Source: Bacteroidales bacterium
GTDB lineage: Bacteria; Bacteroidota; Bacteroidia; Bacteroidales; JAIPAP01
Direction of reading: 5' to 3'
DNA length: 32,407 bases
Assembly (NCBI GenBank): GCA_021740045.1
Contig: JAIPAP010000050.1
Span: 1-32,407 of the forward strand
Part shown: one piece after another, positions 11,113-21,976 of the stretch
Layout of the letters: every line of letters starts with the position of its first letter
How positions within the stretch are numbered: the first letter of the stretch is position 1
The notes under the pieces: generated by a model
What the model saw: the letters and a program-made list of their open reading frames with translations, nothing else
What the model was told of the DNA's origin: nothing
Databases searched by the model: none
Made by a program: the position numbers and the translations under genes

Positions 11113-11856
11113 ATGGAAACTAAAACATTAACAATACTGGTTCCGGCCTACAACGAGGAGGCGACGATTGAGCAAATCCTCGACCGCATCATCGATGCAC
11201 CTTTGATCAATAACATCCAAAAAGAAATTATTGTTATTAATGACGGCTCCCTGGATAATACCAAAAAAGTGGTTGAAAACTATATTCAAACCCATCCCGG
11301 TTTCAACATCCGCCTCCAGAACCAGGAAAAGAACCGTGGTAAGGGAGCAGCTATTCATAAGGGCATAGAGCTTGCCACAGGCAACTACATTGTTGTGCAG
11401 GACGCCGACCTGGAATACCACCCCAATGAATACAATATTTTGCTGAAACCCATGGAAGACGGCGTAGCTGATGTGGTATATGGCTCCCGGTTTATGGGGG
11501 GCAATGCCCACCGCATTTTGTTTTTCTGGCACACCATTGGCAACCGCTTTCTTACCTTTATCAGCAATATGTTCACCAACCTGAACCTTACGGATATGGA
11601 AACCTGTTACAAGCTTTTTAAGGCAGAAATCCTTAAAAAGATCCAATTTCAGGAAAAGCGCTTTGGTTTCGAGCCGGAAGTGACGGCTAAAATGTCGCGC
11701 ATCCCGGGCATCCGGGTTTACGAGGTAGGTATTTCCTACTATGGCCGCACCTATGATGAAGGGAAAAAGATCAAAGCGAAAGATGGAATCTGGGCATTGA
11801 TCTGCACTGTGCGATATAACTTATTTGCGAGAAAGCGTTTTAAGCATGAAGATTAA
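11113..11856 (+). CDS. GT2 glycosyltransferase, DPM1-like
   Basis: A 247-residue GT-A fold glycosyltransferase. The N-terminal TILVPAYNEEATIEQIL, the nucleotide-binding NDGS (D44) and the D97-x-D99 motif (QDADLEYHP) place it in family GT2 close to dolichol/polyprenyl-phosphate mannosyl- or glucosyltransferases. There is no transmembrane segment. Such enzymes move a sugar from a nucleotide donor onto a polyprenyl phosphate at the inner face of the membrane. Its 3' end overlaps the next gene, a polytopic GT-C-like protein, by 11 bp. This suggests translational coupling and that the lipid-linked sugar made here is used by that neighbour. The sugar is not predictable. Confidence 0.88.
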   Translation: METKTLTILVPAYNEEATIEQILDRIIDAPLINNIQKEIIVINDGSLDNTKKVVENYIQTHPGFNIRLQNQEKNRGKGAAIHKGIELATGNYIVVQDADLEYHPNEYNILLKPMEDGVADVVYGSRFMGGNAHRILFFWHTIGNRFLTFISNMFTNLNLTDMETCYKLFKAEILKKIQFQEKRFGFEPEVTAKMSRIPGIRVYEVGISYYGRTYDEGKKIKAKDGIWALICTVRYNLFARKRFKHED

Positions 11857-13555
11857 GCAAAACTCCATTTCCTACTACGTATTTCTGATCCTGATCCCGG
11901 TACTCCTCATTGCCGGATATAATACCAATAAATGGACAAACGAGCAAGTCATCAGTGAGGATGTAAGGGTTTATTATGCTTATCTCCCGGCTGTAGTGAT
12001 ATACCAGGACCTGAGCTTTGAATTCATGGATGAGCTGCCGGATGAATTTATAAAAAGAGTGGCCTATTCAATTTCGCCGGAAAAGGATTTCAGGTATCTG
12101 AAAATGACGATGGGACTGGCTATTTTGTATTTACCCTTTTTTCTTATTGCCCACCTGATAGCCCTGCTTACCCCTTTTGCTGCCAATGGTTATAGCGCTG
12201 TGTATGAAGCAGCCATTCATTTCAGTACGGTTTTTTACGTGCTTGCAGGATTTTATTTTTTGCGAAAGATCCTTTTACGGCATTTTACCGAAAAGGTCAC
12301 ATCATGGACCTTAGTGCTCCTATTGCTGGCCACCAACCTCCTTTTCTATTCCACCATACGAACGGGTACTTCGCATGGATACAACTTTGCCTTAATTACC
12401 GGGACGCTCTATTTTTTCGAACAATGGCATGAAAAACCATCCTGGAAAAACAGCCTGGTCATCGGGCTGACCGGTGGCTTAATGGTATTGATCCGGCCTA
12501 CCAATGCCATTATTGCTTTGGTGTTTATATTATATGGCATATATAACAAACGATCATTGCGGTGGAAAGCAGAACTTTTTCGTAATAACGCAACCAAATT
12601 AATTTTCATTCTCCTCATAGCCTTTCTGGTCCTGATCCCGCAAGTTTTATACTGGAAATGGATAAGCTGCGAATGGGTTTATTATTCTTATGGCGATGAG
12701 AGCTTTTTCTTTTATGATCCGGAGATTTTTAAAGGACTGTTCAGTTTTCGTAAGGGTTGGCTCATTTATACGCCGGTTATGGCCCTGGGTATTGTGGGGA
12801 TGATTGGCCTTTACAGGAATGCAAGAAAATACACATGGGCCATACCTGTATTTTTCCTCATCAATATTTACATCATCTATAGCTGGTGGACGTGGTGGTA
12901 CGGTGGCAGTTTCGGCTCGCGGCCCATGATCGACTCTTATGGATTGATGGCCATCCCTTTGGCGGTTTGCCTGAAATTCGTGTTTAAGCAAAAGACGTGG
13001 ATCAACTATTCGGCTCAGCTTGTTCTTATCTTATTTGTGGCGCTCAACATATGGCAATCGAAGCAATATCAAAAAGGGATCATTCACTACGATGGCATGA
13101 CCCGCGAAGCTTATTTCAGGTGTTTCTTTTCGTGGCATTACCCGAAGAATTACCGGGAATTGATCGACAGACCCGATTACGAAGCCGCTTTACGCAACAT
13201 CGACCGTACTGAAAGCTACCATACCCAAAACATGACGCCCGGTGAGCAGAAATTATTCAACCTGGCCATGAATTCGGAAGATGTGAAAAAACAGATCTAT
13301 GCCCTGGATGTATATCATGGCGATAACTTTATTGGATTTTTAAGAGACGTGGTCACCCATAAGGATCAGCACCCACAATCCTATAACATCATTCAAAAAG
13401 CGGCCAAGGAACGGATACGCAAGCAAATTGTGAATAACAAAAAATGGTATGAAAAGGTAAAACAACAAGCTGCCGAAAAACAAATGCCTGTGGATAGTGC
13501 TTTGAAGAAGCAGGTAAACCACACCTTTTTTCTTAAGTATATAAGAAAGGATTAG
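11846..13555 (+). CDS. Polytopic GT-C-like (GT39-type) membrane protein with soluble C-terminal tail
   Basis: A 569-residue protein with roughly ten or more hydrophobic helices from residue about 8 to 400 and a charged cytoplasmic or periplasmic tail (about 400-569). The first loop holds an acidic motif, SEDVRVYYAYLPAVV, resembling the Asp/Glu-containing first loop of GT-C enzymes that use polyprenyl-phosphate sugars. I recognise no family beyond that. The start at 11846 overlaps the GT2 stop by 11 bp; the upstream in-frame alternative at 11825 is a TTG. The last ~60 residues hold a helical module (KKWYEKVKQQAAEKQ...) whose pattern KW[YF]xKV[KE]xxAxEK recurs in the next gene's lipoprotein, which is otherwise unrelated. 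Confidence 0.72.
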   Translation: MKIKQNSISYYVFLILIPVLLIAGYNTNKWTNEQVISEDVRVYYAYLPAVVIYQDLSFEFMDELPDEFIKRVAYSISPEKDFRYLKMTMGLAILYLPFFLIAHLIALLTPFAANGYSAVYEAAIHFSTVFYVLAGFYFLRKILLRHFTEKVTSWTLVLLLLATNLLFYSTIRTGTSHGYNFALITGTLYFFEQWHEKPSWKNSLVIGLTGGLMVLIRPTNAIIALVFILYGIYNKRSLRWKAELFRNNATKLIFILLIAFLVLIPQVLYWKWISCEWVYYSYGDESFFFYDPEIFKGLFSFRKGWLIYTPVMALGIVGMIGLYRNARKYTWAIPVFFLINIYIIYSWWTWWYGGSFGSRPMIDSYGLMAIPLAVCLKFVFKQKTWINYSAQLVLILFVALNIWQSKQYQKGIIHYDGMTREAYFRCFFSWHYPKNYRELIDRPDYEAALRNIDRTESYHTQNMTPGEQKLFNLAMNSEDVKKQIYALDVYHGDNFIGFLRDVVTHKDQHPQSYNIIQKAAKERIRKQIVNNKKWYEKVKQQAAEKQMPVDSALKKQVNHTFFLKYIRKD

Positions 13556-13615
13556 AGCGATATAAAAGCATATCAGCTCAAATTATTCGAGAACTTCACA
13601 AAAAGCAAAAAATTC

Positions 13616-13623
13616 TATCTTTG
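13616..13623 (+). promoter_or_regulatory. Putative -7 box for the GH16-like lipoprotein
   Basis: TATCTTTG matches TAnnTTTG, 37 bp before the ATG at 13661. It suggests that this gene has its own promoter apart from the GT pair upstream. Confidence 0.42.
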
Positions 13624-13660
13624 GCCGGTAAATTAGCATAATAACTCAAAGGGATCAGAA

Positions 13661-15667
13661 ATGAAAAAGATCAATTTAATTCTTGTTGTATTATTGACCA
13701 GTTTAATCGCAATGCTTACCTATTCATGCTCTTCAGAAAAGGAAAAAGAGCGTTATACTGTAAGTAACTTCACACCGTTCAATTGGGGTGAAATTGAGAA
13801 AGATACCGTGCCTGTAAATGTCGATTTGAACGATGCGATTATAAGTGGAATCCGCATTCCTACAGCCAATCAAACCCAATCAGGGAAATTTGACTTTAGC
13901 TTTTCCGTCAAAAATAATTCGGGTAAGAATACCTCTTTGTATTACAAGCTTTATTATCAAAATGAATCCTACAAGCACCCCTTAACATCCAATATGTTTT
14001 CAGGAACAAAGTACAACCCCGAAGCCGCCCAGAATTTCTATGGGAGTTGGAAAGATTTAAATGTTCAGTTCAAAAAAGCACCTTCACTCAAAAAAGGCGA
14101 TGAGATAGAAATTTCGGATTCATTTTGTATTGTTGGAAACCCCAGGGATGAAAAGAAATATTACGGAAAATCTCAATATTCAAAAGAATTAATCGACATC
14201 ATAGAATCCATTAAAAACGATAATAAGTGGTTTAACAAAGTTGAAAAGGATGCCCAGGAGAAGAACAACACACTTGAAAAGCAGCTTTATCTGGATGCCA
14301 AATATGTATTGAAGCATCGGGATAAAGAATATAATAATCGGTGGAAAAGAAATCCACGGGTTGGGGTTTATAGTTTTATGCTGGTAGTAGCTTCAGAAAA
14401 AGCGATCAATGAAATACCTGAATATATAAAGGACATAAGTAAACGAAATGGGGATAATGTTTTTGTTAATCCGTATTACTATTTTATGCACGGTGATGGC
14501 GCCAAATTAAATGGTGTTCAGGTTATCAAGGCAGACAAGCACCTGAAAGCATCAGCTCACATGCAACCTAAAAAGGGCGTTTATGTTGATTTCTCCAATA
14601 CCTCCGATCCTAAATGCTATGACAGCCTTTGTGGGCAAGGACTTGATCTTTTCCGTAATGCTCATTACAAGCATCATTTTAATTACATTAATAAACAATG
14701 GCCGTTTCACAACATACCACTGGTAAGGGACATTTTTGAAGATGAATACTCGCGTGAAGATTTCAACCGGAATAAAAAGAAATATGATGATAAACGCATT
14801 AAAGATTTTCCTGAGAATCCTGAGTTTCCGTGTAGCACCATTATTCCTGATCCTAATGAAAACACAATTACCCTTATCAATCCAGGCAATAAGGATAAAG
14901 AAAAACCTGCAAAACAGCAAATAGCGATTGAAACCCGTATAGGGTTGACCTATGGAAAATTCAGGGGTAAAATAAAGTTTCCTGAGCTGATTAATAAGTA
15001 TAATGTATGGAATGGTGTTACAAATGCATTTTGGCTCTTTACTCACAGCAGGAAAAACTGGAATAAACGCGATATTTGTGAAGAAGGTTATGTAGCCAAG
15101 GGAGGGGGCGATAAAAAGAATATTGAATATGTGGACCGCGCTACGTATTCGGAAATTGATTTTGAGATTGTGAAGGCTTCAAAGTATTGGTCAAAAAAGA
15201 AGAAGCCACATCACAAAGGATACGAGCCTGAAGAGGCTGATGATATTATTGTGGCATGCACAAACTGGGATTTGGCATGCCAGGACCCACCCAATTTTGG
15301 AGAACCGGAAATGGAATATGGAGGTGAAAAATATTTCCTGCATCGCTGGTATGATACCTACCGGGCCTTAACTTCCAAAAAGCCCATGATTGAGGATGAA
15401 ATGTTTAAGCGGGATTATTACTACTATGAAATCGGGTGGTATCCCGATAGCATTGTTTGGAAAATAGGGCCTTCATTAGATAAATTAAAAACCATTTGTT
15501 ACATGGATGAAACGGTTACCAAGATCCCGAATAACCAAATGGTCATGATGGTCTCCCAGGAATTTCATCATGGAGATTGGTGGCCCACTACGCCATTCCA
15601 TCAAAACAATATTCCGTATCCTAAAAATGATATAAAAGGAGTGATATACGAAATGTGGATAGAGTAA
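13661..15667 (+). CDS. Lipoprotein with C-terminal GH16-like glycoside hydrolase domain
   Basis: A 668-residue predicted lipoprotein. The signal peptide ends in LTYSC-S with C23 as the lipidation site; this lipobox is loose, as is common in this phylum. Residues about 50-165 look like a beta-rich accessory domain. Residues about 173-230 hold a Lys/Glu-rich helical module (NKWFNKVEKDAQEKN). The C-terminal third (about 430-668) resembles a GH16 jelly roll: TYGKFRGKIKFPE and FWLFTH strands, then the catalytic signature S-E498-I-D500-F-E502-I matching the ExDxE nucleophile/acid-base motif, then YYYYEIGWYPDSIVWKIG, like the strand after the active site in laminarinases. It probably cleaves or remodels a beta-glycan or a sulfated galactan at the cell surface. 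The gene looks more AT- and lysine-rich than pdxA or murF upstream. Confidence 0.7.
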   Translation: MKKINLILVVLLTSLIAMLTYSCSSEKEKERYTVSNFTPFNWGEIEKDTVPVNVDLNDAIISGIRIPTANQTQSGKFDFSFSVKNNSGKNTSLYYKLYYQNESYKHPLTSNMFSGTKYNPEAAQNFYGSWKDLNVQFKKAPSLKKGDEIEISDSFCIVGNPRDEKKYYGKSQYSKELIDIIESIKNDNKWFNKVEKDAQEKNNTLEKQLYLDAKYVLKHRDKEYNNRWKRNPRVGVYSFMLVVASEKAINEIPEYIKDISKRNGDNVFVNPYYYFMHGDGAKLNGVQVIKADKHLKASAHMQPKKGVYVDFSNTSDPKCYDSLCGQGLDLFRNAHYKHHFNYINKQWPFHNIPLVRDIFEDEYSREDFNRNKKKYDDKRIKDFPENPEFPCSTIIPDPNENTITLINPGNKDKEKPAKQQIAIETRIGLTYGKFRGKIKFPELINKYNVWNGVTNAFWLFTHSRKNWNKRDICEEGYVAKGGGDKKNIEYVDRATYSEIDFEIVKASKYWSKKKKPHHKGYEPEEADDIIVACTNWDLACQDPPNFGEPEMEYGGEKYFLHRWYDTYRALTSKKPMIEDEMFKRDYYYYEIGWYPDSIVWKIGPSLDKLKTICYMDETVTKIPNNQMVMMVSQEFHHGDWWPTTPFHQNNIPYPKNDIKGVIYEMWIE

Positions 15668-15774
15668 TTCTTATTGATTTCGCTTAGATAAATCACCGTG
15701 TTTGGTTTCAGCCACACAAAGATATACGCAACATCCACCTGCGGTTATTCCTATTTTTCAGAATCAGAGGTTAT

Positions 15775-17202
15775 CTATCCGTCCGTTTTACTTGATTCTG
15801 AATTCTTCCCTTTAGAAAAAATTTGCTTGAAATCACTATATATCATGACCCGGTATTTTATGCCAATAAAAATTGTATAAAATGGCAATAACCAGATAAC
15901 CTTCCCAAAATAACGTTGCGAAACACCAGAAAGTGAGGATGGAAGGCCGGCATCCAATATCAAGAAGGTAGCAATCATAATAAGTACTGCCAGGTCACGT
16001 TTGTCCATTTTTTTTACCAAATTTCTTGCGAATAGGTACAAAAGTGCAAAAACAGTAATTATCATAACTGTTGCTTGCCGTTTGTTTGATGCCCCCCAGT
16101 CCAATTTAAAAGAACCTTGTCTAGCAACTTTGTATTCTTTGAACTCATGCTCAAAATATTCCTTGAGTCTTGGTTCTGCCTCCTTATTTTGATTTAATAA
16201 ATACCCGATTTTGAATTGGGTTAACTGCCGCATTGTATTGGTAAAAACACTCTTGATATGCCAAGCGATGTATCGTGGTTTGGTAAACGATTGTTTTATT
16301 AAATAATTTAATTCCTCTTCCATCTTATACCATCCTCCACATTTACGTAAAGGACTTTTTTTAGTCCAAATATAATTACCACGATATGAGGGAAACTCAC
16401 CTTGGTATTTACAAAAGCAAAGGTCATTGTTCGGCTTTTTACACTCATCTTCAAGGACTTGTTCAAGGATTCCGTTTTCTAGCAACCTTCCAGAGATAAA
16501 AACATGACCATGCGTGTTCATAGTAAAATTTTTGGATATTATAAAATTAATGAACGGTCCCATAAGCCAAGCCCCTACAATTATGGCAGCAACTATAATG
16601 AACTGATTCTTAATAACTCTCCTCCTGAACCATTTAATCGTAAAAAAGAACACAGCCGAAAGCACAAGTAAAACAGTGAATAAAGGATAATGGGAATTGT
16701 GAGTTAATATGCTAAACAAAAGCAAGATAGATAAAAGGATTAATTCAACATGATTTTTTGTCTTGTAGAATAATAATATTAATACCGAAAGAAATGCTAT
16801 GCTGGTAAATATATCGGCCATAATCTGACTAGCGTACCATGAAACTCCTGTGTATAGCACCAGAAAAAAGATAATAGCTAGAAATAAGGCATTATTTTTT
16901 GATTTAAGAAACATCCTAAAAAGACGGAATATCAAGTATGAAAGTATAGTGCTCTGGGCAATTACAACATACCACAGTGATTGAGCTAGACTGAAGACAT
17001 AAACAAAATACCCATATTCTATTGGTCTCTTCATCCATTTTACAGCATTAGTAAACCCCCCTGATATATATTCTTTGGAATCAGGTGTTATCATTGGATA
17101 GCCATTATAAAAAGCTACACCGGAAAGAATTAATCCTCCTAAAAAAATAAAAAGAAAAAGGATAAGGTAGTTATTGAAATTCTTTATTTTTTTCGTTTGC
17201 AT
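15775..17202 (-). CDS. Polytopic membrane protein, GT-C-like
   Basis: A 475-residue protein with many hydrophobic helices (first at about 12-32, last at about 430-450) and one large hydrophilic loop (about 230-350) that contains several cysteines (DECKKPNNDLCFCKY and RKCGGWY). The first loop carries YPMITPDSKEYISGG, an acidic motif in the same position as in GT-C glycosyltransferases of the GT39/PMT type. No family was recognised with certainty. It is the last gene of a five-gene minus-strand cluster that begins with a polyprenyl-phosphate-type GT2, which fits a role in transferring a lipid-linked sugar outside the membrane. Base composition is visibly AT-rich compared with the flippase and sulfotransferase genes. 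It ends 107 bp from the convergent lipoprotein gene. Confidence 0.62.
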   Translation of the reverse strand: MQTKKIKNFNNYLILFLFIFLGGLILSGVAFYNGYPMITPDSKEYISGGFTNAVKWMKRPIEYGYFVYVFSLAQSLWYVVIAQSTILSYLIFRLFRMFLKSKNNALFLAIIFFLVLYTGVSWYASQIMADIFTSIAFLSVLILLFYKTKNHVELILLSILLLFSILTHNSHYPLFTVLLVLSAVFFFTIKWFRRRVIKNQFIIVAAIIVGAWLMGPFINFIISKNFTMNTHGHVFISGRLLENGILEQVLEDECKKPNNDLCFCKYQGEFPSYRGNYIWTKKSPLRKCGGWYKMEEELNYLIKQSFTKPRYIAWHIKSVFTNTMRQLTQFKIGYLLNQNKEAEPRLKEYFEHEFKEYKVARQGSFKLDWGASNKRQATVMIITVFALLYLFARNLVKKMDKRDLAVLIMIATFLILDAGLPSSLSGVSQRYFGKVIWLLPFYTIFIGIKYRVMIYSDFKQIFSKGKNSESSKTDG

Positions 17203-17298
17203 ATTTTTATGTCTTTAAAATTATCTTCAAGTTTTCAAAATTATATCATTATTAAATATCAGACAACTCCAATCTGTTTATAAGGAGCATATAATCAA

Positions 17299-18288
17299 TT
17301 ATTCTCTCTTATTACCAGTCTTAATAATATGCACTCCCTGGCTCACCAACGCCAGCACCACAATAATCACCATCGTTAAAATACGTTGGCCGACTACAAA
17401 AAGCAAGGCTAACTGACTGGAGACTTTAGCCAGTTTGAGGATACCGAACCAGCCAGCTTCAAATATGCCCAGACCACCGGGTGTGAAGGAAAATAAATAA
17501 CCCAGCTGCCCCAGCGGCGTTCCGAGGATGATAATGCCCGGATCAACGATCACATTAACCGCATAGGCAAAAAACACAAAGCGAAACATGGTAAAGAGCA
17601 TCTTGAGCATGCTGGCGGCATAAATGCGCAATACGATCTTTCGCTCAAAATCAGGGATATCAATGGCTTGGGGTATGCGCTTTTTAAGAAACGGCAAAAC
17701 CGAAAAAATCCTGATGAGTAAATTGAGCAATTGCTGCATCAGGTAAAACAGGAAATTTGGTTTATAGGCTAAAATACCGCCAAACAGAATGGCCAAACCG
17801 GCGAGAAAAAAATAGCTAGCGGTTTCCGGAAAAACGCCCAGCCAAAAGGGGATTACCCCGGCTAATAGAATTAACATGGCCAGCAGGTCATACATCCGGT
17901 CGATAAACACGGAAACCCCGGCATCGGACAAGCGGCTGTTGTGGCTCTTTTTGAGCCAGTAGATACGCACCCCGAAATCGGTGAAATCTTTGGGCAGGAT
18001 AAACCCCAATGCCCGGCTTTGAATAAAGTAATGGTAATACTGCCTCCATGTTGCCAGCCTTTCACCGGCAAGGGTATTGGTAATGGTGCCCCATCTATAG
18101 GCAATGGTTCCCGTGATGCCTATGCTTACTAAAAACGCTCCTGCAAATGGTTTCCATTGGATTTCCCTGAGCTTTTGAATAGACTCTTCATTAATGAAAT
18201 AAATGAAGCCAATAAACAGCGCAGCCCCGATAATAAACAAAGCAATATGCTTAAACCATTTCATTTTTCGACTACGCGTTTTATTCAT
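17299..18288 (-). CDS. Flippase-like / lysylphosphatidylglycerol synthase TM-domain protein (AglD/UPF0104 family)
   Basis: A 329-residue inner-membrane protein with about eight hydrophobic helices. The C-terminal signature FSFTPGGLGIFEAGWFGIL is diagnostic of the LPG_synthase_TM family (COG0392). A family-typical loop with Arg and Lys (QSRALGFILPKDFTDFGVRIYW) is also present. There is no aminoacyl-transferase domain, so it is not an MprF enzyme. Standalone members are generally thought to flip or otherwise handle lipid-linked intermediates, but their activity is poorly defined. The start lies 6 bp after the sulfotransferase stop, so the two are surely co-transcribed. The context suggests movement of a lipid-linked glycan or glycolipid. 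Confidence 0.85.
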   Translation of the reverse strand: MNKTRSRKMKWFKHIALFIIGAALFIGFIYFINEESIQKLREIQWKPFAGAFLVSIGITGTIAYRWGTITNTLAGERLATWRQYYHYFIQSRALGFILPKDFTDFGVRIYWLKKSHNSRLSDAGVSVFIDRMYDLLAMLILLAGVIPFWLGVFPETASYFFLAGLAILFGGILAYKPNFLFYLMQQLLNLLIRIFSVLPFLKKRIPQAIDIPDFERKIVLRIYAASMLKMLFTMFRFVFFAYAVNVIVDPGIIILGTPLGQLGYLFSFTPGGLGIFEAGWFGILKLAKVSSQLALLFVVGQRILTMVIIVVLALVSQGVHIIKTGNKRE

Positions 18289-18294
18289 AGGTCA

Positions 18295-19179
18295 TTAACG
18301 ACTAAAATCCGAATAACTCATTAGCTGGATCAAATCGGGGTGCAGATTTTCTTTGATCTGCTGGTTCAGGTATTCCACGTGCTTTTTATCGAGCTCTTCA
18401 CGAAAACCACCCACTTTACCCTTACGGATCTTCTGGGAGTTCTTCTGGTTTTTGGCCCCCGGTTTCATCCAGGGCTCCTTAAGCGATCCGGAAGTTTCCA
18501 TTTTGGTCATCTTCGAAAAACGGCTTTTTTCAATGGCTTCTTTGGCCAGTTTTTCATCAACCTTTAAATCAAAGAAATCCAGCATGTCCTGCAATTGCTC
18601 CTCGGTATTGCGGTGAAAATTTTCGTAGCTCATCACCTTGAAATCGGCGGGAACATTGCGGTTTTCATAAAATACATTAAAAAACCTGATCACTTTTTGA
18701 ATGCCTGTTAAATCTTCATAAATAAAATCATCGAGCGGTTTGTTATAGATGTTTTCGCGGTATTTCAAATGATACCAGCTCGAGACTAACACATCCCGTG
18801 GATCGCGGATAAGGAACAGCACCTTTTTTCCTTTATATTTTTCCCGGTCGAAAACCACATCCTCCAGCTTTGGCGGTGCAGGCACCCAGTTGCCCACATC
18901 ATGCTCAAACTTGATCACCTTATCCGGGGCGATCTCCACCAAGGCGCTGTCGTTGAAGAACCGGGGTTTATGCCCGGTCATTTCGGCATATTTCTGCAGC
19001 ATGATGCGCAGCCAGGTACGGCCACACTTGGGATAAGATACTATGTAGTAATCCGGATCAACATTATCGACCTTACTCAGGATATAGGTTCGCCAATAGA
19101 ACTTAAAGGTCTCCCAGCTTCCCAGTACCTTAACGAATTTATCCCGGTAGTTTCTGAATTTAAATAGCTGTCGGTTCAT
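18295..19179 (-). CDS. PAPS-dependent sulfotransferase
   Basis: A 294-residue sulfotransferase of the Sulfotransfer_1 family, which moves a sulfuryl group from PAPS to a hydroxyl or amine of an acceptor. The 5'-phosphosulfate loop SYPKCGRTWLR (K51) and the 3'-phosphate site R125-DPRDVLVS133-SWYH are both intact. H93 (KFEHDVGNW) is in the expected place for the catalytic base, and the C-terminal RKGKVGGFREEL is the usual nucleotide-closing loop. There is no signal peptide, so it works in the cytoplasm. The spacing (32 bp after the toroid gene, 6 bp before the flippase gene) puts it inside the glycan operon. The acceptor is unknown; a sugar on a lipid-linked intermediate is the likeliest. Bacterial members of this family are less common than animal ones. 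Confidence 0.93.
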   Translation of the reverse strand: MNRQLFKFRNYRDKFVKVLGSWETFKFYWRTYILSKVDNVDPDYYIVSYPKCGRTWLRIMLQKYAEMTGHKPRFFNDSALVEIAPDKVIKFEHDVGNWVPAPPKLEDVVFDREKYKGKKVLFLIRDPRDVLVSSWYHLKYRENIYNKPLDDFIYEDLTGIQKVIRFFNVFYENRNVPADFKVMSYENFHRNTEEQLQDMLDFFDLKVDEKLAKEAIEKSRFSKMTKMETSGSLKEPWMKPGAKNQKNSQKIRKGKVGGFREELDKKHVEYLNQQIKENLHPDLIQLMSYSDFSR

Positions 19180-19211
19180 AAGCTTGCTGTTTTCATCCGG
19201 TGATTTTCTTC

Positions 19212-20903
19212 CTAACTTACCTTCATACCACCGTTTTTGAGGTCGAAGGTTCTGCTAAAGCTTATGTTTTTGTTGCTGTTGAATTCTTCCAGTTTCTCCC
19301 TGCCCGGCACATAAGCTTCCACCTCCAATTCCTGCGACTGAAAATAACGACTTTGCGGAACGTAGCGCACAAAAAATTCATCACCTATGGATAATGAGCT
19401 GAACTTGTCGCTTCCGGAAATTTTTAATTGATCGCTAATTACAAACTCATCTTCATGCAAAGTGAATGTTCGCTCAAAAGAAACCGGCAAGCTCCGTTGC
19501 CCTAATATGAGCGATTTCCTGATCTGTCCTTTAAGCCAGTGCGCCATGGAAGGTATCCAGCCAATAGCAATAAGTGTGGCCCGGAAAAGGATATTTTTAA
19601 AGGGTGTAAACAATTTATTGGAAGGAACCATATGAAAATTCCCTTTTACTTCACCCCGGTATGAGGAGGCTTTTGCCTGATACTGGGGATCAACCCACTG
19701 GTTGGTGGCTACTTTACCATTTTCCAAACGCCCTATGATTCCGCAATCATTTACCAGCAGCTTGCCGGTTTTACGGTTGAACACCTTGATCACCCCTCCC
19801 TTGGCCAGGTTGGAAAGGAGGTAATAATCCCCTTTAGTCGCTGCAAAGATCCTGGAGCGCTCGTAAAAATGCTCAAAATCGTCTTGCTCATACGGTAATG
19901 CAGGAGCATTATCCTGCTTTTGGGTATAATCGATATAGGCCAGCAAAAACTCGGGTACCCGGTAAAACACATAGCGGTCCGAAATGATCTCCGGGGGAAC
20001 CAGCTTATCTTCACTCAATCCTTTAAGCATCTTTTGGGCAATGGCATTGGCCAGCGGGATTTGTTTTCCTAAAATTTCATACCCGTGCGGATAGAAATGA
20101 AGCGTGTTACGGCTTCCGGCGCTGCCGGCATAAAAACCATTGGGATACACAAAGTAGGCTGAGAATTTCACCGATTCTTCCAACACCTTTCTGATTTCGG
20201 GATCGGGATTGGTTTGGTAAATCTTTCCAAGGAAGGATACCGTAGCTGAAAGATAGCCCGGGTCTACCCCGTCGTACTCCCTTGACCAACCTTCATTTTC
20301 ATAGTGATAAGTCTTAAAAGTTTGCCATAACTTGTTATAGCCTGCTTTGAGCTTCTCCTCACCCAGCAATTCATAAGCTTTCCACACACTCATACAAGCC
20401 ATGGCGTGGTGGTTGGCCAGGTGGTCTTCCTCGGTTTCACCTTTGGTAATAAAATAAGCCGCTTTGCGAATGGCGTTTTTGATAATTTCCTTTTCGGTGT
20501 CCGGAATTTCATCTTCAAGCAAACGGTAGGCTTCAATGATGGTGAACATGGTAAAGGCGGTAGGTCCTACCCATCCGCGCTCATAGGGATAAAACTCATC
20601 GAATGAACCGTCGTTATGTTGAATTTTGCTCCAGAACACCATAGCAGCAATGGTCCAGTCCCTTATTTTCGGTTGGCCTTTGTATATGCTTCCTGGAAAA
20701 TCATATGTATAAACCAATGCCAGGGCATGCACACCAAACTGCCGTACCGCATCGGGAAAGTCGGACGTTTTATCCAGCCAGTAATCGCGGTGAAAACATC
20801 CATAGGTAGGTGAAAAAGGATTTCTATCCATGTTACCCAGCAACCGGGGAATTTGTGATATGGCTTTATCTGCGTAAGCGTTTCTTAGTTTATTTTCCTC
20901 CAT
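19212..20903 (-). CDS. (alpha/alpha) toroid + beta-sandwich protein, polysaccharide-lyase-like, no export signal
   Basis: A 563-residue protein. Residues about 1-330 are predicted alpha/alpha-toroid helices with aromatic clefts, for example FYPYERGWVGPTAFTMF and N164-H165-H166 (HLANHHAM). A GWSREYDGVDPGYLSATV motif resembles the active-site Tyr/His region of heparinase II/III and alginate-lyase-type enzymes. The C-terminal part (about 350-563) is a beta-sandwich (FSSLSIGDEFFVRYVPQ). The layout fits the polyanion lyase superfamily, but I cannot assign a PL family. Unlike typical lyases it has no signal peptide or lipobox; the start MEENKLRNAYADKAIS is hydrophilic. It sits between a GT2 and a sulfotransferase in one operon. 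Other possibilities are an epimerase-like or glycan-binding toroid protein. Confidence 0.55.
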   Translation of the reverse strand: MEENKLRNAYADKAISQIPRLLGNMDRNPFSPTYGCFHRDYWLDKTSDFPDAVRQFGVHALALVYTYDFPGSIYKGQPKIRDWTIAAMVFWSKIQHNDGSFDEFYPYERGWVGPTAFTMFTIIEAYRLLEDEIPDTEKEIIKNAIRKAAYFITKGETEEDHLANHHAMACMSVWKAYELLGEEKLKAGYNKLWQTFKTYHYENEGWSREYDGVDPGYLSATVSFLGKIYQTNPDPEIRKVLEESVKFSAYFVYPNGFYAGSAGSRNTLHFYPHGYEILGKQIPLANAIAQKMLKGLSEDKLVPPEIISDRYVFYRVPEFLLAYIDYTQKQDNAPALPYEQDDFEHFYERSRIFAATKGDYYLLSNLAKGGVIKVFNRKTGKLLVNDCGIIGRLENGKVATNQWVDPQYQAKASSYRGEVKGNFHMVPSNKLFTPFKNILFRATLIAIGWIPSMAHWLKGQIRKSLILGQRSLPVSFERTFTLHEDEFVISDQLKISGSDKFSSLSIGDEFFVRYVPQSRYFQSQELEVEAYVPGREKLEEFNSNKNISFSRTFDLKNGGMKVS

Positions 20904-20930
20904 TATCAGTCTGATTAAAAGATGGTTAGT

Positions 20931-21809
20931 TTACTCAGGATAATATTTATTTACATTTCCTTTCCGGTTGATCAAATCGGCGATCATTCCGATTGCCAGC
21001 ACTTGTATGGACGATAGTAACAAAATGGATACCGATGCGTCGAGCACCCTGGGTAACCATATGTAACTGGCCACAAGCACAACTATGCCAATAAGCGCCA
21101 GGACTATAGCCAGGGGAATAAACACTTTAAGCGGGTTGAAATAAATGATGGTTCGAACGATCAATTGAATAAAGTTCAGGGTATCATAAAAAGGCTTGAT
21201 CTTGCTCTTGCCTTCTCTTTTCATGTATTCGATGGGCATATAGTGCACGTCGAGCTCACTGGTGAGCATGGCCAATGAAATGGTAGTGGTAAATGAAAAG
21301 CCCGAGGGAATGATGTGGAAGAAACGCAAAGCATCTTTTTTCCAAAACATCCGCAAACCTGAATTAATGTCGGGTATCTTGTAATCGGCCAGGTAGCTGG
21401 CCAGCTTGGTTATGAATAGCTTTGCCGGTTTGGTAATGGTAGGCAATTGCTTAAAAGGCCTCCGCCCAACGATCATGTTATACTTATGTATCTCTTTAAA
21501 CATGGTGGGGATGTATTCGATGGGATACGTTCCGTCAGCATCGGTAATGGCAATGACCTCATTCTTACTTTCCAGTATGCCTGCTTTCAACGCTGCCCCG
21601 TAACCTTTGTTGATCTCATAATCCACCAGGTGAAACTTGTTCTCGTACTCCCTGAGGATGTCCCCGGTTTTATCGGTAGACCCATCATTCACCACGATCA
21701 GTTCATAATCAATGTCCGTTTCGGACATCATATTGTTAATATTCTCTATGGTTGGAATGATGGAGTTTTCCTCGTTATAAACCGGGATAACAATGGATAG
21801 CTTATGCAT
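20931..21809 (-). CDS. Membrane-anchored GT2 glycosyltransferase (GtrB/ArnC-like)
   Basis: A 292-residue protein. The GT-A domain shows SIVIPVYNEENSI, VVNDGSTDKTGD and the metal-binding D90-A-D92 (ITDADGTYP). Two C-terminal transmembrane helices (about 229-251 and 258-278) end in a short charged tail. This is the architecture of undecaprenyl-phosphate sugar transferases such as GtrB and ArnC. It should load a sugar onto undecaprenyl phosphate at the cytoplasmic face. It is the first gene of the minus-strand operon GT2 - toroid - sulfotransferase - flippase-like - GT-C, with the next gene 27 bp away. The donor sugar is not predictable. No clear TAnnTTTG box was found in the 167 bp upstream. 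Confidence 0.88.
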   Translation of the reverse strand: MHKLSIVIPVYNEENSIIPTIENINNMMSETDIDYELIVVNDGSTDKTGDILREYENKFHLVDYEINKGYGAALKAGILESKNEVIAITDADGTYPIEYIPTMFKEIHKYNMIVGRRPFKQLPTITKPAKLFITKLASYLADYKIPDINSGLRMFWKKDALRFFHIIPSGFSFTTTISLAMLTSELDVHYMPIEYMKREGKSKIKPFYDTLNFIQLIVRTIIYFNPLKVFIPLAIVLALIGIVVLVASYIWLPRVLDASVSILLLSSIQVLAIGMIADLINRKGNVNKYYPE

Positions 21810-21976
21810 AATGTTGTTTGTTGATTTTTGAACCCGCAGGTTTTAGTTCAGTCAAAACATTTAATGTTAATGATTACCAATTAAATAAAGTAACCCAAAT
21901 CAATATAAGGGCACAAATATCAACACTTTTTTTGAAAATGCATATGATCGTTTACACCTGAAGGTAAATTCTTTGC

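Follow-up and report, generated by a model that had tools for sequence, protein, structure and literature searches.

The 32,407-nt contig JAIPAP010000050.1 of a Bacteroidales bacterium (GCA_021740045.1), hereafter the window, is one contig of a 3.9-Mb, 161-contig genome and carries on its minus strand a run of five genes, which we designate GT2, TOR, SULF, FLIP, and GTC. The conserved unit in this run is GT2, TOR, and a PF03706-type flippase; TOR is the hallmark of the cassette, and SULF is one occupant of an exchangeable slot. We assign a probability of roughly 55% to the reading that the genes encode an extracytoplasmic glycosylation cassette of the three-component type, to which two cytosolic enzymes that tailor a polyprenyl-phosphate sugar have been added. 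The cassette is a known pathway type with a new arrangement, and its core is also found in distant bacteria, where a methylation gene often replaces the sulfation gene. An earlier reading made from the letters of the window alone (the sequence-only reading) had treated the five genes together as one operon for a probably sulfated, lipid-linked surface glycan; it underrated TOR and overrated the five-gene set as a unit. Loci and genomes are labeled with L- and G-numbers, respectively, and G000 is the window genome.

GT2, 20931–21809, minus strand, 292 aa: polyprenyl-phosphate sugar synthase-like glycosyltransferase with C-terminal transmembrane (TM) segments
TOR, 19212–20903, minus strand, 563 aa: apparently cytosolic protein with an alpha/alpha-toroid and a beta-domain
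SULF, 18295–19179, minus strand, 294 aa: sulfotransferase of the 3′-phosphoadenosine 5′-phosphosulfate (PAPS) type, in the exchangeable tailoring slot
FLIP, 17299–18288, minus strand, 329 aa: LPG_synthase_TM / UPF0104 flippase-like protein
GTC, 15775–17202, minus strand, 475 aa: polytopic protein, candidate GT-C transferase, from a separately moving gene family

Conserved core and exchangeable slot

Open reading frame (ORF) calls bore out the five-gene run, with all genes on the minus strand, ATG starts throughout, and gaps of 27, 32, 6, and 96 bp. The short gaps make a single transcript plausible, and GTC is set off from the four upstream genes by the 96-bp gap and by its lower GC content (33.8% versus 43–45% for GT2, TOR, SULF, and FLIP). 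A promoter scan gave 9 sites, fewer than in shuffled sequences (17.5), and 9 terminator-like sites were found versus 6.9 (standard deviation 2.3) in shuffles, which is about chance level.

A scan of genome contigs with TOR gave 25 loci (50–81% identical), all from metagenome-assembled genomes (MAGs), which together with the window make 26 close loci. By title they belong to Bacteroidota, Chloroflexi/SAR202, Deltaproteobacteria (including Desulfarculales, Syntrophobacterales, and Myxococcales), Neomarinimicrobiota, Hydrogenedentota, Falkowbacteria, and Parcubacteria. The loci with a named taxon thus span about eight phylum-level groups, with mis-binning of single contigs possible, and the nearest TORs are from Bacteroidales MAGs; five further loci carry no label beyond "bacterium". 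L019, which hardly differs from L018, is absent from the 25-row alignment and from the tree but counts among the 26 loci. Repeats of the window and close loci (L007–L010, L017, L043–L045) and of the remote loci L048–L052 (L011–L015) were dropped.

Models derived from the 26 loci were used to scan the neighbors of TOR. At 23 loci the gene immediately upstream of TOR on its strand is a GT2, with gaps up to 145 bp; the upstream GT2 is more distant (E about 1e-30) at L025, L026, and L030. The three loci without such a call have an incomplete GT2-like ORF where the contig ends (L028), no upstream DNA (L033), or no GT2 within 6 kb on the strand (L039). Of the 26 loci, 20 have a PF03706-type flippase on the TOR strand no more than 6 kb away, and the flippases of L031, L034, L037, and L041 were confirmed as PF03706. 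The flippase precedes GT2 at L024, and at L037 it is a weak match 4.7 kb away. Among the remaining six loci, L029 and L035 end 632 and 27 bp past TOR, the equivalent ORF at L040, a locus very similar to L037, scores below the threshold of the flippase model, and L023, L032, and L036 have no flippase in the sequence available around TOR.

The five genes together are not a conserved unit. The order GT2-TOR-SULF-FLIP recurs at three loci in two genomes of another Bacteroidales family. At two of these (L018 and L019) a GTC homologue lies on the same strand about 3.5 kb past the flippase, with two opposite-strand genes between, and the third (L020) has no match to GTC. Among 295 genomes of the order, 10 have a TOR (E ≤ 1e-5). 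In the three with a TOR at least 80% identical (G000, G013, and G129), SULF adjoins TOR; G013 and G129 belong to one family and G000 to another. G153, with a TOR 51% identical, has no match to SULF. A phylum-wide search with the close-TOR profile found 1 of 345 genomes, which was the window itself, and a search in the class of G655 (Chloroflexaceae locus L042) found 3 of 158, two already known and one remote (G711). The TOR family is therefore rare wherever it was sampled. None of the counts includes the remote G711 match (L046/L054), which was not assigned to an ORF. As a separate observation, the MAG G013 holds two diverged GT2-TOR-SULF-FLIP modules (L055 and L056).

The gene that follows TOR varies. 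At the 26 loci it is a methyltransferase in 12, the flippase directly in 8, a sulfotransferase in 4 (the window, L018, L019, and L020), a carbamoyltransferase in 1, and no module member in 1, so that a tailoring enzyme adjoins TOR in 17. Five of the S-adenosylmethionine-type methyltransferases are fused to the C-terminus of TOR (L022, L027, L034, L035, and L042) and seven are separate; three of the 12 were checked with Pfam (L021, L032, and L042). The carbamoyltransferase (L036:3344-5194; PF16861 and PF02543) is from a Hydrogenedentota MAG. The fusions in 5 of 26 loci point to a common substrate of TOR and the tailoring enzyme. In a tree of 31 TORs, those with a sulfotransferase form one clade (100/100), which is weakly joined (83/59) to a Neomarinimicrobiota TOR without a tailoring gene, and those with a methyltransferase are scattered. 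Several branches of this tree are long and its deep joins are unsure. The weak relative L016/L053 (24% over 316 residues, with no matching context) was excluded from the 31 TORs.

Predicted fold and putative active site of TOR

TOR belongs to a family that has no Pfam or NCBIfam model over cut-off and is absent from the literature searched. In Pfam, the only match is a sub-threshold one to Pec_lyase (E 0.017). A search of PDB sequences with TOR, both as a single sequence and as a profile, gave no meaningful match, including to the dermatan sulfate (DS) epimerases. The toroid fold, for which the sequence-only reading had proposed structure prediction as a check, was recovered in an AlphaFold2 model built from 25 sequences (pLDDT 86.2, pTM 0.89). 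The top Foldseek matches of the model were PL33 lyases, human DS-epimerase 1 (6hzn), and PL8 and PL17 lyases; a viral structure library gave weak matches only. In VIA-align, 6hzn aligns near full length (Z 20.5, rmsd 5.2, 460 residues, model residues 4–563), and a beta-domain follows the toroid in the model, as in the lyases and DS-epimerase 1.

In hhalign, the TOR profile matched heparinase II/III (28 proteins) with 93.7% probability, AGE with 6.9%, GH88 with 5.2%, and reversed heparinases with 0.1%, these values being single pairwise runs, not a database search. The profile used here omits L053, with which the probability was 94.8–97.7%. The heparinase set comprises 28 of 30 loci (from 33 places matched) chosen by PF07940, the AGE set 11 of 14 loci, and the GH88 set 12 of 20 loci. 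In the profile alignment, N164-H165 face the Asn-His of the lyases and Y210 faces the lyase Tyr, with Y217 as an alternative. All 31 TORs share the motif EGWxxEYxGxDxGY, and the acids E108, E204, E209, D214, and D309 are invariant in the alignment.

By profile and predicted fold, TOR is a distinct branch of the heparinase II/III-like superfamily, with a putative active site that looks intact but altered. It should not be classed as a lyase or a DS-epimerase. TOR is apparently cytosolic: the window protein has no hydrophobic segment, and ORFs at 3 of the 25 close loci (L023, L025, and L026) are longer and show one crude segment.

Candidate pathway and alternatives

Crude hydropathy gives 0 TM segments for TOR and SULF, 3 for GT2, 6 for FLIP, and 8 for GTC. 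GT2 matches PF00535 over cut-off (101.8 bits); the two TM helices ascribed to it earlier disagree with this count. Its best NCBIfam matches, all far under their cut-offs, are AglJ, dolichyl-phosphate hexose transferase, PgfS, and ArnC-type models. The models named nearest to GT2 are mostly polyprenyl-phosphate sugar synthases, and the synthase assignment is made at family level only. FLIP was correctly recognized as an AglD/UPF0104 flippase-like protein (PF03706, 92.4 bits with a cut-off of 33.4; TIGR00374, 44.7 bits with a cut-off of 43.2) and may be designated a flippase by family membership. Proteins of UPF0104 / PF03706 have been put forward as glycosylation flippases (PMC5898192).

The sulfotransferase domain of SULF was likewise confirmed (PF00685, 74.6 bits, residues 41–280). 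The segments YPKCGRTW, RDPRDVLVS, and RKGKVGG, seen by eye in the translation, are presumably the PAPS-binding motifs. Its relatives of solved structure are mostly cytosolic sulfotransferases, plus TEG12/Teg14. APS (adenosine 5′-phosphosulfate) kinase, which indicates a supply of PAPS, is present in all three genomes that have both TOR and SULF (G000, G013, and G129).

GTC had been read as a GT-C-like polytopic protein. Its polytopic nature holds, but the AlphaFold2 model, built on two sequences only (window and L018), did not confirm a GT-C fold (pLDDT 39, pTM 0.27). No Pfam family matched GTC over cut-off, with DUF7657 sub-threshold (E 0.031). Asp41 and Tyr45, just past the first TM segment, are invariant in all 16 aligned homologues, which come from 16 of 18 genomes; G013, whose matches are like those of G129, and G235, a partial match, were left out. 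These 18 among the 295 genomes of the order include 13 without a TOR match and 5 shared with TOR, and in G153 GTC and TOR lie on different contigs. With this distribution and a GC content of 33.8%, GTC seems to move independently of the other genes. The island holds another candidate transferase, GTC2, which matches PF13231 marginally (26.2 bits, cut-off 26.1) and has homologues at L020, L048–L051, L147, L152, L156, and L157. Homology between GTC and GTC2 was considered and is unsupported (hhalign 10.8%).

What we observed is gene order, families, recurrence of the core, exchange of the slot, the predicted fold of TOR, and the missing His/metal motif of the lyases; every substrate and reaction below, the flip, and the final transfer are what we infer. 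GT2 would load a sugar onto polyprenyl phosphate at the inner membrane face. TOR would then alter this lipid-bound sugar; the most likely reaction is proton chemistry at C5 of a uronic acid, with epimerization of glucuronic acid (GlcA) to iduronic acid (IdoA) favored. After TOR, SULF would add sulfate from PAPS to the lipid-linked sugar, FLIP would move the finished polyprenyl-phosphate sugar across the membrane, and GTC and/or GTC2, as putative GT-C-type enzymes, would pass it to a periplasmic acceptor. The load-sulfate-flip part of the sequence-only reading fits the gene context and the four-gene order at three further loci, but the GTC transfer step that it added is not part of the conserved set.

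TOR probably performs C5 chemistry on a uronate. This role is proposed by analogy, because its sequence-profile relatives and full-length structural neighbors carry out such chemistry, and because an epimerase and a sulfotransferase pair in animal glycosaminoglycan synthesis and on a lipid-linked glycan of Halobacterium. A further step, in which TORs are cytosolic metal-free uronyl C5-epimerases on polyprenyl-phosphate uronate and the operon makes polyprenyl-phosphate IdoA-sulfate for surface glycans, methylated or carbamoylated in other phyla, we consider unlikely.

Several points weigh against the proposed pathway and the uronate role of TOR. The loop motif H-x-H/Q-x-D of the beta-domain is absent from all 31 TORs checked; it is present in 24 of the 28 heparinase comparison proteins, a set chosen by PF07940 and so not blind to the motif. 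The loop falls in a 12-column alignment gap after K368-G-G of TOR. The matching residues of DS-epimerase 1 include His450 and the Mn ligand His452 (PMC8006597), a correspondence made by motif and spacing rather than by superposed coordinates. In addition, 5 of the 6 remote TORs have Gln instead of His directly after Asn164. With the motif missing and this replacement, the lyase/epimerase mechanism is not transferable as it stands. The hhalign probability for heparinase II/III falls to 46% with close TORs alone and to 29% with remote TORs alone. A UDP-sugar dehydrogenase, tried as support for uronate chemistry, is present in 26 of 27 TOR genomes but also in 13 of 14 controls; the family is near universal, so uronate supply is no discriminating test. 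At the 8 loci where the flippase directly follows TOR, no tailoring enzyme adjoins it, and L023 has neither tailoring enzyme nor flippase in the available sequence. The GT-C identity of GTC is unproven.

It is possible, if short of probable, that TOR uses this fold for a different kind of chemistry (2-epimerase/isomerase-like, glycosidase-like, or beta-eliminating) on the lipid-linked sugar. The toroid half alone aligns best in VIA-align with AGE-type 2-epimerases (Z about 21–25.5 over about 300 residues), the His/metal motif of the lyases and DS-epimerase 1 is missing, and the invariant acids listed above would suit other chemistry. However, the sequence profiles pick heparinase II/III and not AGE or GH88, N164-H165 and Y210 align with the lyase residues, and a beta-domain follows the toroid, whereas AGE enzymes are described as a single helical domain (PMC13308652). 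We regard it as rather unlikely that a short lipid-linked oligosaccharide is what the cassette assembles or alters, in the manner of haloarchaeal N-glycosylation, with TOR and SULF acting on an internal sugar. Halobacterium has a sulfated, IdoA-containing lipid-linked tetrasaccharide with a C5-epimerase acting before export, and the C5-epimerases discussed in the same paper need flanking sugars (PMC13308652); a second GT2 (GT2b) also lies in the island. Against this, the window TOR has a single GT2 as its direct neighbor, GtrA, a proposed flippase of undecaprenyl-phosphate glucose (PMC11127046), can adjoin a TOR (L050), and no oligosaccharyltransferase or Wzx/Wzy family was found among the 19 window proteins, a subset of its ORFs, that were run against Pfam.

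An accidental neighborhood, in which the target of SULF is unrelated, e.g. a sulfolipid, appears very improbable. GTC moves apart from the other genes and differs in GC content, sulfotransferases are common (PF13469 matches 6 places in the window genome), and G035 has a 33% identical SULF match and no TOR match. This last genome is, however, the only one without a close TOR among the 4 of 295 genomes of the order that have SULF at E ≤ 1e-20; the other three have a TOR at least 80% identical. The four-gene order at three other loci, and the position of SULF in the slot of the methyltransferase that is fused to TOR elsewhere, also argue for a functional link.

The proposed pathway resembles the ArnC-ArnD-ArnE/F-ArnT pathway of lipid A, in which a sugar is loaded, modified on the lipid, flipped, and transferred by a GT-C enzyme. 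ArnD is a deformylase and ArnE/F an SMR-type flippase, unlike the cassette enzymes, and the sugar and the acceptor differ. In three-component systems, a synthase charges undecaprenyl phosphate, a flippase exports the product, and a GT-C enzyme transfers the sugar (PMC11127046). The GtrA/GtrB/Gtr systems and the pentofuranose systems of Citrobacter youngae share with the cassette a GT2 or synthase, a flippase, a candidate GT-C enzyme, and a cytosolic auxiliary enzyme that probably acts on the lipid-linked sugar before export (PMC11127046). In contrast to the GtrA and MATE systems, the flippase of the cassette is PF03706 and its final transferase is a candidate. In Citrobacter O2, a cytosolic short-chain dehydrogenase/reductase (SDR) epimerase is inferred to act on the undecaprenyl-phosphate sugar before export (PMC11127046), whereas the auxiliary enzymes of the cassette are a heparinase-fold protein and a sulfo-, methyl-, or carbamoyltransferase. 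Sulfotransferases in a Wzx/Wzy cluster with a separate GtrA cluster (PMC13390465) represent a different arrangement.

Human DS-epimerases 1 and 2 (PMC8006597, PMC13308652) resemble the TOR model in toroid and beta-domain over nearly the full length, and DS-epimerase 2 has a C-terminal sulfotransferase domain, so that epimerase and sulfotransferase are fused (PMC13308652). As described there, they act on a polymer in the Golgi lumen and bind Mn, whereas TOR lacks the His450/His452 motif. The heparinase II/III-type lyases (PL12/PL17/PL33) share with TOR the predicted fold, the Asn-His and Tyr positions as placed by the profile alignment, and the profile match; unlike them, TOR has no TM or evident export segment and no His/metal motif, and it stands among sugar-loading and flipping genes. 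The Agl system of Halobacterium salinarum, with the C5-epimerase Agl32 and two sulfotransferases, also yields a sulfated uronic acid on a lipid carrier before export (PMC13308652, PMC11980604). It differs in using a dolichyl-phosphate tetrasaccharide, and Agl32, compared by its description, has a helical domain only and no beta-domain. No description of a GT2-toroid-tailoring-flippase cassette was found in the open-access literature searched, which gave papers on related systems only.

The context of the cassette turns the nameless TOR family from hypothetical proteins into testable tailoring enzymes. It also suggests that bacteria vary their surface sugars by exchanging a single cytosolic enzyme within an otherwise constant load-modify-flip cassette. 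Should TOR prove to be a C5-epimerase, bacteria would have a new route to IdoA; the account in PMC13308652 gives one D-glucuronyl C5-epimerase identified so far in bacteria. If polyprenyl-phosphate IdoA-sulfate is the product, the cassette would mirror in bacteria the way animals pair an epimerase with a sulfotransferase for dermatan and heparan sulfate, but on a lipid-linked monomer instead of the polymer.

Remote loci and the surrounding island

Remote TORs, about 25–31% identical, occur in other Bacteroidales families and in Phyllobacterium, the latter being the one remote TOR found in a search of a plasmid collection. The Phyllobacterium locus (L047), a stretch without annotation in the plasmid table, has the order GT2-TOR-flippase-polytopic protein. 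L048 and L049 contain a flippase, TOR, GT2, a GTC2/GTC-type protein, and an FrhB-like protein (by Pfam for L048 and by eye for L049). At L050, TOR is followed by GtrA (PF04138; L050:3149-3631) and then GT2, with GTC2 nearby, so that GtrA occupies the place of the PF03706 flippase. At L051 a PF03706 protein adjoins TOR and the nearest GT2 match is on the other strand, and L052 is cut at TOR.

The other features around the five genes of the window are as follows:
GT2b, 11113–11856, plus strand: second GT2, beside GTC2 (PF00535, 120 bits)
GTC2, 11825–13555, plus strand: PMT_2-like polytopic protein, second candidate transferase
Orphan lipoprotein-like protein, 13661–15667, plus strand, 668 aa
Left flank: PdxA, Mur ligase-alanine racemase fusion, GT2b, GTC2, orphan lipoprotein-like protein
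Right flank: PBP1a-type gene (assigned by eye), GldH, PSP1, DNA polymerase III delta-prime-type gene

L156 and L157 carry homologues of PdxA, the alanine racemase fusion, and GT2b beside a module without TOR, which consists of GT2, a methyltransferase, an FrhB-like protein, a flippase, and an SDR, together with GTC and GTC2. For L157, the FrhB, methyltransferase, and SDR assignments come from Pfam. At L157, a homologue of the PBP1a-type gene lies on the other side of the module. These gene sets indicate that the island between GT2b and the PBP1a gene (window 11113–21976) holds alternative load-modify-flip modules in different families of the Bacteroidales. The GT2b homologues are 61–71% identical at L049, L147, L152, L156, and L157, and 65–67% at L020/L056. 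In a genome without a TOR match, L147:263-1919 holds a sulfotransferase-like gene (PF13469 below cut-off, E 5e-4) that leads directly into a PF03706 flippase, with GTC2 and GTC after it.

FrhB/FdhB-type proteins (PF04422, PF04432) are encoded at L048:1272-2573 and L157:5204-6520, beside modules with a remote TOR and without TOR, which suggests a redox step on the lipid-linked sugar. The lipoprotein-like protein at 13661–15667 has no Pfam, NCBIfam, or PDB match. A 68% identical homologue is encoded at L057 near the same module, and the C-terminal half is very conserved, with an EIDFE motif that we take to resemble that of GH16 enzymes.

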